From Zophobihabitans entericus (GTDB lineage: Bacteria; Pseudomonadota; Gammaproteobacteria; Enterobacterales; Orbaceae): a DNA stretch of 64,000 bases. The position numbers and the translations under genes were made by a program. Location: the NCBI RefSeq assembly GCF_011745665.1, contig NZ_CP050253.1:905418-969417 (forward strand), in the 5' to 3' direction. Shown here piece by piece: positions 50,164 to 52,769 of the stretch (the first letter of the stretch is position 1; the number at the start of each line of letters is the position of its first letter). Under the pieces are notes generated by a model. The model had not been told where the DNA came from. It worked only from the letters and a program-made list of their open reading frames with translations, and made no database searches.

Positions 50164-51468
50164 TTAAGCGATTTTACGTATTAGCCAGATACATAACGCT
50201 GATATGATTAGTGGTAAACCAAGAGCTGTAAAATAGGACTCCATAGACCAGTTAGCTGCAATCAGTATTCCTGCCAGATAAGGTCCAATTGTGGCACCAA
50301 GTCGTCCGATTCCTAGTACAAAACCTGTTCCGGTCGTTCTGATTTCGGCCGGAAATACTTTTGGCGCTGTAGCATAAAGCCCAGCCATGGCACCAAAGAG
50401 TGTAAAGCCGATAAGAGTAATTAAACTGAGCAGAATAATTAAAACATTCTGGCTAAAACCAAATAATACTACAGCGACAAATCCAACAATTAGCATCACT
50501 GCGGTTACGACTTGTACTGAGTAACGTCGTGATAACCATCCGAGCGACAGACCACCAACAATTCCGCAGAGATTCATTAAAATAGAACCGGTGATACTAG
50601 TTTGTGTTGAGTAACCGAGGTTAACCAGAATTTTTGGTGTCCAGTTGGTTAAAAAGTAGAAGGAACACATCAACATAAAGTAGCTACAGCAGAGTAATAA
50701 GGTCGTTTTTAACATAGCCGGAGTAAACAGTAATTTAAAGGCATTCTGCGATTGCTTATTTGTTCTGCAGGTAACTTCCGGATAGCTTGTTTGTGTCGGT
50801 AGTCCTAATCTGACTAGTAATTGATTTAGTTTAGTTAAACGTTGTTTATTTTGGCTGTTTAATAAAAAATCTAATGATTCTGGTAACTGATAAATCACAA
50901 TGGGAATTAACAGTAATGAGAATGCACCACCAAAAAAGAATACATAACGCCAGCCATAACTATTAATCAGATATATTGATAAAATCCCTCCAACCATCGC
51001 ACCAACTGTATATCCGGCCGCCATTATACTAATAGCCAGTGAACGATATTGGTTAGATGAGTACTCTGCAACGACAGTATTTATGGCGGGTAAAATAGCC
51101 CCCATTCCAAGACCGGTAATAATTCTTAGCGTAATGAGCTGTTCATAACTATCGGAAAGACCGGAAGCAAACATACCTAAACTTAAAATCGCCAGACATG
51201 TTAAGACGATAAAGCGACGACCAAATTTATCAGCCAGCGGAGAGAGCAGCAAAGCACCTGCTACCATGCCGGCTAGTCCTGAACTAAATAATAATCCTAA
51301 CTGCTCAGGAGAAAGCCCCCATTGTGCTGTGATTGATGGGCCTGTAAAAGCAATAGCCAGAACATCAAATCCATCAATAAAGCTGATTAAAACACAGACT
51401 GTGACAGCAACAATCTGAAACAGGTTCATAGAACCTGTATGTAAACTCTGTCTGATATCAATATTCAC
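50164..51468 (-). CDS. MFS transporter, aromatic acid:H+ symporter (AAHS)-like
   Basis: A 434-residue inner-membrane transporter with about 12 helices. DGFDVLAIAFTGPSI in the first helix and LADKFGRRFIVL in the loop after helix 2 are AAHS-type motifs (PcaK, BenK, MhpT). IITGLGMGAILPAINTVVAEY is also typical. The start is GTG at 51468 behind a modest AGG site; an in-frame ATG at 51426 is an alternative. It lies about 30 bp downstream of the MetE-like gene and is probably transcribed with it, hence possibly under MetJ. Its substrate might be a methylated or aromatic compound linked to methionine supply; that is inference. Confidence 0.85.
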   Translation of the reverse strand: MNIDIRQSLHTGSMNLFQIVAVTVCVLISFIDGFDVLAIAFTGPSITAQWGLSPEQLGLLFSSGLAGMVAGALLLSPLADKFGRRFIVLTCLAILSLGMFASGLSDSYEQLITLRIITGLGMGAILPAINTVVAEYSSNQYRSLAISIMAAGYTVGAMVGGILSIYLINSYGWRYVFFFGGAFSLLLIPIVIYQLPESLDFLLNSQNKQRLTKLNQLLVRLGLPTQTSYPEVTCRTNKQSQNAFKLLFTPAMLKTTLLLCCSYFMLMCSFYFLTNWTPKILVNLGYSTQTSITGSILMNLCGIVGGLSLGWLSRRYSVQVVTAVMLIVGFVAVVLFGFSQNVLIILLSLITLIGFTLFGAMAGLYATAPKVFPAEIRTTGTGFVLGIGRLGATIGPYLAGILIAANWSMESYFTALGLPLIISALCIWLIRKIA

Positions 51469-51501: not shown

Positions 51502-52629
51502 TTACTTCTTGATTTCCAGATTACCCCAGACATCTTTAGCAATATCAACAACCAGTTGTAGTTTGGCGCGTTGTTCCGCTACTGTAATGTTATTGCCGTG
51601 AACTGTACTACTAAATCCACATTGTGGGGATAGAGCCAGTTGTTCAAGCGGAACATATTTTGCAGCTTCTTCTAGACGGCGCTTAATGTCATCCGGATTT
51701 TCAAGTTGTGGGAACTTGCTTGAGATCAGACCTAGTACCGCAATTTTACCTTTTGGAAGGAAACGTAATGGCTGGAAATCACCACTGCGTTCATCATCAT
51801 ATTCCAGGAAGTAAGCATCTAATTTCATTTCACTCAGTAGTGCTTCTGCCACAGGTTCATAATGGCCACTAGCGGCGTGAGTACTTCTGAAATTACCACG
51901 GCAAAGATGAATTGAAAGTGTAAGATCTTTTGGTTTTAAAGCCACGACTTTATTGATAAATTCAGCGTACTGATAAGGTAGTTTTTCCGGGTCATCACCA
52001 CGCGAACGTGCAGCCTCTCTCATTTTGTTATCACATAAATAAGCCAGATTGGTATCATCCATTTGTACGTGACGACAGCCTGCGTTATAAAGTGAAGTAA
52101 GTTCATCGGCATAAGCCTTTGCAACGTCGTCATAAAAATCTGGCTCCAGTTTTGGATAAGCACGATAATCAATACCTGCACGTCCGCCACGGAAATGTAA
52201 CATGGTTGGTGAGGGGATTGTTACTTTAGGTATTGAAGTTGGTGCAGCCTGACTTTTTAAATATAAGAAATCTGATAGCTGAATATCTCTGATATGCTTA
52301 ACACGGCTGGTTACTTTAATAGTTGGTGGGGATAGCTCTTCTTTACCATCAGCATTTTTAACAATCACTGGAATATCTGTAGTTACACCACCAAGTTGTT
52401 GTAAGAAATCAAGATGGAAATAGGTTCTGCGAAATTCACCATCAGTTACACTGTGAATGCCAACTTCTTCCTGAAATTTTACGATTTCGGTAATGGCCTT
52501 ATCTTCAACTGTTCTTAGTTGATCAAATGTAATGGCGTTATTAGCATATTGTTGACGCACCTGTAACACGTAGTCAGGTCTAAGAAAACTGCCTACATGG
52601 TCAGCACGAAAAATAGGTGATTGGCTCAT
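51502..52629 (-). CDS. Short MetE-like cobalamin-independent methionine synthase family protein
   Basis: A 375-residue protein resembling only the C-terminal catalytic barrel of MetE (full MetE is about 755), like Bacillus YxjG/YxjH. The complete zinc and homocysteine site is present: His241-x-Cys243 in SIHLCRG, Glu276 in FLEYDD and Cys337 in SPQCGF. DHVGSFLRP at residues 10-18 is a family start. Four tandem MetJ boxes lie just before the gene, so it belongs to the methionine regulon. The likely reaction is methyl transfer to homocysteine. The methyl donor is unknown because the N-terminal domain needed for folate polyglutamate use by MetE is absent. The following MFS gene may supply it. Confidence 0.85.
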   Translation of the reverse strand: MSQSPIFRADHVGSFLRPDYVLQVRQQYANNAITFDQLRTVEDKAITEIVKFQEEVGIHSVTDGEFRRTYFHLDFLQQLGGVTTDIPVIVKNADGKEELSPPTIKVTSRVKHIRDIQLSDFLYLKSQAAPTSIPKVTIPSPTMLHFRGGRAGIDYRAYPKLEPDFYDDVAKAYADELTSLYNAGCRHVQMDDTNLAYLCDNKMREAARSRGDDPEKLPYQYAEFINKVVALKPKDLTLSIHLCRGNFRSTHAASGHYEPVAEALLSEMKLDAYFLEYDDERSGDFQPLRFLPKGKIAVLGLISSKFPQLENPDDIKRRLEEAAKYVPLEQLALSPQCGFSSTVHGNNITVAEQRAKLQLVVDIAKDVWGNLEIKK

Positions 52630-52651
52630 TTTTTTATCCTTACAATTTATA

Positions 52652-52683
52652 AGACTTCTAGGTGTTTAGACGTCTAGATGTAT
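52652..52683. promoter_or_regulatory. Four tandem MetJ operators (met boxes)
   Basis: Four contiguous 8-bp units, AGACTTCT, AGGTGTTT, AGACGTCT and AGATGTAT, match the met box consensus AGACGTCT at 7, 5, 8 and 6 of 8 positions. They begin 23 bp upstream of the MetE-like start codon. MetJ binds such arrays cooperatively with S-adenosylmethionine. Confidence 0.85.
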
Positions 52684-52769
52684 TTAATCATATCGAAACA
52701 ATTTTATGAATGCAAATAAAATATTCATTTATTTATGAAAAGAGTTGAGTAGAAAAATAAAATAAAAAA

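Follow-up and report, generated by a model that had tools for sequence, protein, structure and literature searches.

Here, we present an analysis of a half-size metE gene (short metE) of Zophobihabitans entericus and of the 64,000-nucleotide stretch of DNA in which it lies (NZ_CP050253.1, positions 905,418 to 969,417; hereafter, the window). The gene encodes a single MetE catalytic barrel, is preceded by a predicted four-box MetJ operator, and is followed by a gene for a transporter of the aromatic acid:H+ symporter (AAHS) type. We tentatively propose that its product is a SAM-repressed, zinc-dependent homocysteine methyltransferase for which an imported small compound, most likely a methoxy-aromatic acid, would supply the methyl group. 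This proposal derives from comparisons of sequences, predicted structures, and gene neighborhoods. The relevant features are listed in Table 1.

Table 1. Features of the short metE locus (positions are those of the window)
Feature	Position	Strand	Basis or remark
MFS transporter CDS, 434 aa, AAHS type	50164..51468	minus	TIGR00895 best match; adjacency
Short metE CDS, 375 aa, ATG start	51502..52629	minus	ORF call; PF01717, NF005085, AF2 model, 1ypx match
Cys337 codon, zinc ligand (PQCGF)	51619..51621	minus	Invariant in 40 sequences; aligns with Cys of MetE NPDCG
Glu276-Tyr277-Asp278 codons	51796..51804	minus	D278 aligned with zinc-ligand Glu of MetE; E276 invariant too
His241-Leu242-Cys243 codons, zinc ligands	51901..51909	minus	Invariance and alignment with MetE
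Four contiguous 8-bp met boxes (predicted MetJ operator)	52652..52683	minus (gene strand)	26/32 matches; conserved in most orthologues; metJ in genome
Met box 1, AGACTTCT	52652	read on plus	7/8
Met box 2, AGGTGTTT	52660	read on plus	5/8, weak
Met box 3, AGACGTCT	52668	read on plus	8/8
Met box 4, AGATGTAT	52676	read on plus	6/8
Weak sigma-70-like promoter, TTTGCA-18-TATGAT	52687..52716	minus	9/12 matches, a level that chance alone would give

Domain structure and active site of the short MetE

A sequence-only reading of the window had described the protein as the MetE barrel without the N-terminal domain. Consistently, in profile searches PF01717 covers residues 11-365, and the match to the MetE N-terminal domain (PF08267) is below the cut-off. 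The score against NF005085 (442.3 bits versus a curated cut-off of 313) places the protein in the PRK06520 subfamily. TIGR01371, which describes the two-barrel MetE, gives 38 bits against a cut-off of 929.95, and the protein also lies far below the cut-offs of PRK04326 and of PRK09121 (47.5 bits versus 392 for the latter, which we take to be the model of the MesD family). The AlphaFold (AF2) model, which has a pLDDT of 89.8, matches best the Listeria structure 1YPX (Z 39.8, rmsd 1.9, 316 residues, 45% identity), annotated as a putative synthase only; the next match is the C-terminal barrel of MetE (Z about 33).

Among 40 aligned family members, the four residues that had been named as the zinc site (H241, C243, E276, and C337) are all invariant, as are the homocysteine residues S14, E65, and D191 together with D278. 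However, the fourth zinc ligand of MetE (E. coli Glu665) aligns with D278, two residues from E276, rather than with E276 itself. Either residue could serve as the fourth ligand; in MesB, an Asp works as a zinc ligand (PMC7857596). The folate motifs of the MetE catalytic domain fared differently: RCVKPP of MetE is replaced by EELSPP, and the Trp of ILNWS is gone, with MLHFRGG in its place. Altogether, these data support that the short MetE is a single MetE catalytic barrel of the PRK06520 subfamily with an intact zinc/homocysteine site. We consider an XecA-type epoxyalkane:CoM transferase improbable, since the protein has retained the homocysteine residues.

A predicted MetJ operator upstream of short metE

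The met-box array is located 22 bp upstream of short metE. Scored against the reference pattern AGACGTCT, it contains, as the sequence-only reading had noticed, four contiguous boxes of which one is perfect, and its total score exceeds the maximum of 22 that was reached when 6.4 Mb of window-like sequence were simulated with a Markov model. Single met boxes in the window (6 observed versus 15 expected) show no excess over chance; we therefore consider the tandem array to be the signal. Elsewhere in the genome, strong two-box sites, i.e., those in which no more than 3 of 16 bp deviate from the pattern, are present at metK, metNIQ, metB/metJ, and an additional MetE-like ORF. Because a reversed-pattern control gave equally many genome matches at up to 3 mismatches, we rely on the array and on those four sites that deviate at no more than 2 positions.

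The met boxes recur in related genomes, where the sequence-only reading had suggested looking for them. In the window gene and five of its six orthologues in the family, they are located 28-38 bp before the ATG. Three of these orthologues (in genomes G030, G038, and G039) have AGACGTCTATCCATCT (13/16), two others score 12/16 (G029) and 11/16 (G041), and the boxes are lost in the sixth (G001). The orthologues in betaproteobacteria have no met boxes, the best upstream scores being 7-9/16. The host genome encodes MetJ (E 1.6e-54), and both marks by which we recognize a MetJ regulon member, i.e., metJ in the genome and tandem boxes at the promoter, are present. The predicted operator would cover the transcription start, and short metE is apparently under MetJ-SAM repression, as judged from the operator sequence.

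The sequence-only reading regarded these boxes as tying a poorly understood family to methionine biosynthesis. The link to MetJ stands at the level of sequence, but not its novelty: that half-size MetE genes can be under MetJ control has been known since 2011 from metE2a of K. pneumoniae, which encodes a half-size MetE and is strongly repressed by MetJ (repression ratio 0.02; Augustus & Spicer 2011, PMC3228920). In that study, the role of metE2a was unclear, and no conserved neighbor or transporter was reported for the metE2 genes (PMC3228920).

Methionine genes in the host genome and the family

Family profile searches of the genome, which cover the genes that the sequence-only reading had singled out for a search, identified MetH (a 1236-aa frame with no met boxes), MetF, and metA and metB, both with met boxes. 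Short metE is the sole PF01717 match, and a genome-wide search for the MetE N-terminal domain (PF08267) gave none. A split MetE consisting of the barrel and a separate N-terminal domain was rejected on the latter ground. Thus, full-length MetE was not found, and its absence is likely real, albeit not certain because the genome is 91.7% complete. Among the 43 other family genomes, 41 have a full-length MetE match, and the remaining two have completeness values of 67% and 81%; all six relatives that carry short metE have kept full MetE. The B12-binding domain PF02310 was found only in MetH and in a 509-aa protein that looks like a radical-SAM protein, and this search revealed no corrinoid methyl carrier other than MetH.

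The genome also contains, between rnk and murJ, an ORF of 232 aa (L046:776-1471, minus strand; genome C1:858021-858716) that is preceded by three contiguous met boxes, all near-perfect (AGACATTTAGACGTCTAAACATCC). Its product is a zinc-less, truncated, and divergent relative from the same protein family (E 1e-9). We considered this ORF as a conserved partner and rejected it, as it is found in only 1 of 44 genomes, i.e., the host.

Short metE is paired with an AAHS-type transporter gene

The transporter gene begins 33 bp downstream of short metE on the same strand. The best family of its product is TIGR00895, at 380 bits and below the curated cut-off of 418.55. Each of the seven genomes that carry a window-type short metE has an AAHS-type gene immediately after it on the same strand, while the upstream neighbors vary. 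Moreover, among the 44 family genomes searched, the AAHS-type transporter is present in 7/7 with short metE and in 0/37 without it (Fisher p 2.6e-8, a value that ignores the shared descent of the genomes). Because of this shared descent, the co-occurrence shows that the pair has been kept together, not that seven independent events took place.

Two of the family genomes contain a short MetE of a Providencia type without met boxes. In G001, it is a second short MetE, encoded directly after the transporter gene (L036:8745-9917); in G002, it is alone at the same lexA-side locus (L041:5748-6926).

Origin of short metE

In a tree of 89 sequences, the eight Orbaceae rows form a clade (100/100) inside a 38-row betaproteobacterial clade (100/100), with Castellaniella as the neighbor of the Orbaceae clade (97/86). 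The homologues from Klebsiella, Pantoea, Listeria, Priestia, and Moraxella form a separate clade (100/98). The outer clade contains some long branches, so that its inner order is unsure. Because the Orbaceae genes nest inside the betaproteobacterial clade, short metE would most simply have been acquired horizontally from a betaproteobacterial lineage, with MetJ control gained afterwards and separately. The Klebsiella row is a plasmid homologue that we assume to be of the metE2a type and to which the short MetE has 49-50% identity; on this basis, the tree rejects orthology to metE2a. Eleven positions tell the window-type group from the metE2a-type group, the latter represented by five sequences only; among them, Y70, F71, L195, S340, and H344 (W, W, W, A, and E in the metE2a type) flank the homocysteine or zinc motifs. 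E. coli genomes gave no DNA-level match.

Gene neighborhoods of relatives

Neighboring ORFs were called with a GC3-weighted caller, and some starts and overlaps are rough. In the betaproteobacterial loci, the most frequent neighbors by Pfam are VanA-type Rieske oxygenases, components of branched-chain-type ABC transporters, and GntR/FCD regulators (11 each), together with nine 2Fe-2S (VanB-type) reductases. VanA is encoded within three genes of short metE in 11 of 33 of these loci, whereas a VanA that near is expected by chance in about 0.14 of 25 genomes. VanAB is vanillate O-demethylase. Five loci have the order vanA-vanB-short metE on one strand (L069, L071, L078, L080, and L082), and in another five, a divergent vanA lies beside short metE (L075, L077, L087, L091, and L095). 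In three Sphingomonas genomes, the sole VanA of each is at the short metE locus, together with an AAHS gene. At the remaining loci (96 neighbor proteins), MFS (8) and VanA_C (5) are the leading families. The short stretch covered of the Castellaniella sister locus contains no aromatic genes.

The Cytophagales loci have a PRK12582 acyl-CoA synthetase, which we take to be feruloyl-CoA synthetase-like, a crotonase (enoyl-CoA hydratase), and an AAHS transporter around short metE, and further contain an SDR, an esterase-like protein, and an amidohydrolase. Such ferulate-type sets are conserved at L110, L112, L114, L116, L117, L119, and L121. VanA is missing from six of the seven Cytophagales genomes, with one weak match in the seventh, and no VanA was found in any of the 44 family genomes. 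In Pigmentiphaga, short metE begins 4 bp after a full metE on the same strand, and a MetR-like gene is divergent (L093:3600-7107); this arrangement is an independent link to methionine within the same clade.

Sequences related to short metE also occur on plasmids. A short metE of the other clade, carried by a Pantoea piersonii plasmid, lies directly behind a set of gallate-type ring-cleavage genes, namely galB, a gene for a ligK-type aldolase, and an annotated tautomerase gene (L052:2379-7101). On the unannotated 33-kb Klebsiella variicola plasmid CP063895.1 (L150), three places match the short MetE, the best with ~32% identity. On a Rhodococcus opacus plasmid, a divergent short MetE lies beside a limonene-epoxide-hydrolase-like gene, folE, and folP (L055:5432-13098).

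A model for the function of the short MetE and its alternatives

In our model, short metE and the transporter gene would form an operon, with short metE in first place, and MetJ-SAM would shut this operon off via the four-box operator at the promoter. The AAHS-type symporter encoded by the second gene would import the methyl donor, a small methylated aromatic acid that is most likely methoxylated, e.g., vanillate or ferulate. Homocysteine, bound as a zinc thiolate, would then accept the methyl group directly, yielding methionine and the demethylated phenol without folate or cobalamin. The parts of this model differ in strength. Homocysteine methylation is strongly suggested by the conserved zinc/homocysteine residues, the MetJ boxes, and the linkage to metE. 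The transporter pairing and the O-demethylation context of the relatives moderately favor a small imported compound as the donor, most likely a methoxy-aromatic acid. Because the family lacks VanA, the barrel is the only candidate for demethylation in its operon. A precedent for this chemistry is provided by LigM, DesA, and Dmt, enzymes that transfer the methyl group of methoxy-aromatics to THF (PMC9404685). However, VanAB already demethylates vanillate in many relatives, where the barrel could serve another purpose; arguments from gene context are guilt by association; and non-methylated acids, too, are among the substrates of AAHS carriers. Moreover, homocysteine is a stoichiometric acceptor, so that the enzyme would skim methyl groups and could not carry bulk catabolism, and methyl-folate is available in the cell since MetF and MetH are present. 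The broader version of the model, i.e., a direct aryl O-demethylation-to-methionine synthase, free of folate and cobalamin, that occurs throughout a large clade extending from betaproteobacteria to Cytophagales and came under MetJ control after transfer into Orbaceae, is doubtful in our view.

The sequence-only reading had left the donor open between a methyl-folate, a corrinoid protein, and a small methylated compound. We favor the last over methyl-folate, which is the main rival: the protein could be a pared-down MetE whose single barrel takes methyl groups directly from 5-methyl-THF, perhaps in polyglutamylated form, and that backs up MetH without requiring B12, with the transporter acquired separately. 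Such a back-up would be useful in a host with MetF and MetH and without MetE, and both the Pigmentiphaga arrangement and the predicted MetJ control fit it. The lost folate motifs and the missing N-terminal domain argue against methyl-THF; in addition, the relatives with short metE retain full MetE, and the transporter pairing and the vanAB context would be left unexplained. Hence, we consider this alternative unlikely, yet the one to be taken most seriously. Distinctly unlikely as well is a core synthase with a different imported donor, i.e., an N- or S-methyl compound such as a betaine-type compound, S-methylmethionine, or a methylated heterocycle. It would account for the transporter pairing, and mmuPM and the MHT/dpp pairs in the MetJ regulon likewise combine a homocysteine methyltransferase with a transporter (PMC3228920), but the best family of the transporter is that of aromatic acid/H+ symport and the relatives cluster with O-demethylation genes.

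Two further alternatives are improbable. Instead of accepting the methyl group, the barrel could capture or detoxify, via a thiol, a formaldehyde-derived C1 product of O-demethylation in the vanAB operons, and be retained by descent in Orbaceae. While the vanA-vanB-short metE order at five loci and the release of formaldehyde by VanAB (PMC10154247) speak for this idea, the 44 family genomes lack VanA, as do the Cytophagales genomes apart from the one weak match, and the MetJ and MetR-like links point to methionine. The least probable donor in our view is a corrinoid, as thought for MesA and MesB. A core MetE of Dehalococcoides uses methylcobalamin (PMC7005905), and MetH indicates cobalamin use in the host; against this, MetH is the only cobalamin methyl carrier found in the genome, the second B12-binding match being the radical-SAM-like protein. 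We therefore disfavor the corrinoid option and retain the imported methoxy-aromatic acid as the preferred donor.

Comparison with known systems

metE2a likewise encodes a half-size MetE, has met boxes, and apparently belongs to the same PRK06520 subfamily (PMC3228920), but it differs in its separate clade and active-site neighbors, and in having no reported counterpart to the AAHS-type transporter gene that always adjoins the window gene. The half-size YxjG/YxjH proteins of Firmicutes, including Listeria 1YPX, share the fold and the zinc site; however, MetJ regulation and the transporter partner set the window gene apart, and the clade differs. In Lactobacillus, YxjH is methionine-regulated by a T-box (PMC6004538). 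MesA-MesD are also barrel-only MetE relatives with zinc/homocysteine residues and use non-folate donors (PMC7857596); the paper on these folate-independent synthases does not mention YxjG/YxjH or PRK06520. LigM, DesA, and Dmt resemble the proposed enzyme in moving a methoxy-aromatic methyl group to an acceptor without oxygen, but they belong to an unrelated protein family and their acceptor is THF rather than homocysteine. The mmuPM pair (S-methylmethionine permease and homocysteine methyltransferase) is, like the window pair, a MetJ-controlled pair for an imported donor, but the fold family of the enzyme (PF02574) and the transporter family differ. In Phaeobacter, deletion of a core-MetE-like gene still allowed DMSP to shorten the lag phase (PMC12366255). 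In mostly non-subscription literature, we found no paper in which MetE-like enzymes are connected with vanillate, with syringate, or with aryl methyl ethers. The novel elements are the pairing with a transporter gene, the vanAB/ferulate-type context, the position in a separate clade, and an independent recruitment to MetJ.

Half-size MetE genes occur widely, and their routine annotation is that of methyl-THF-dependent methionine synthases, even though the folate domain is missing. The transporter and the vanAB/ferulate-type neighborhoods give this clade a concrete class of donor. If our model is correct, a single step that requires neither folate nor cobalamin nor oxygen would bring the methyl groups of plant methoxy-aromatics into methionine and SAM. 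This would bear on the nutrition of gut symbionts, the use of lignin C1 units, and genome-based calls of methionine auxotrophy.
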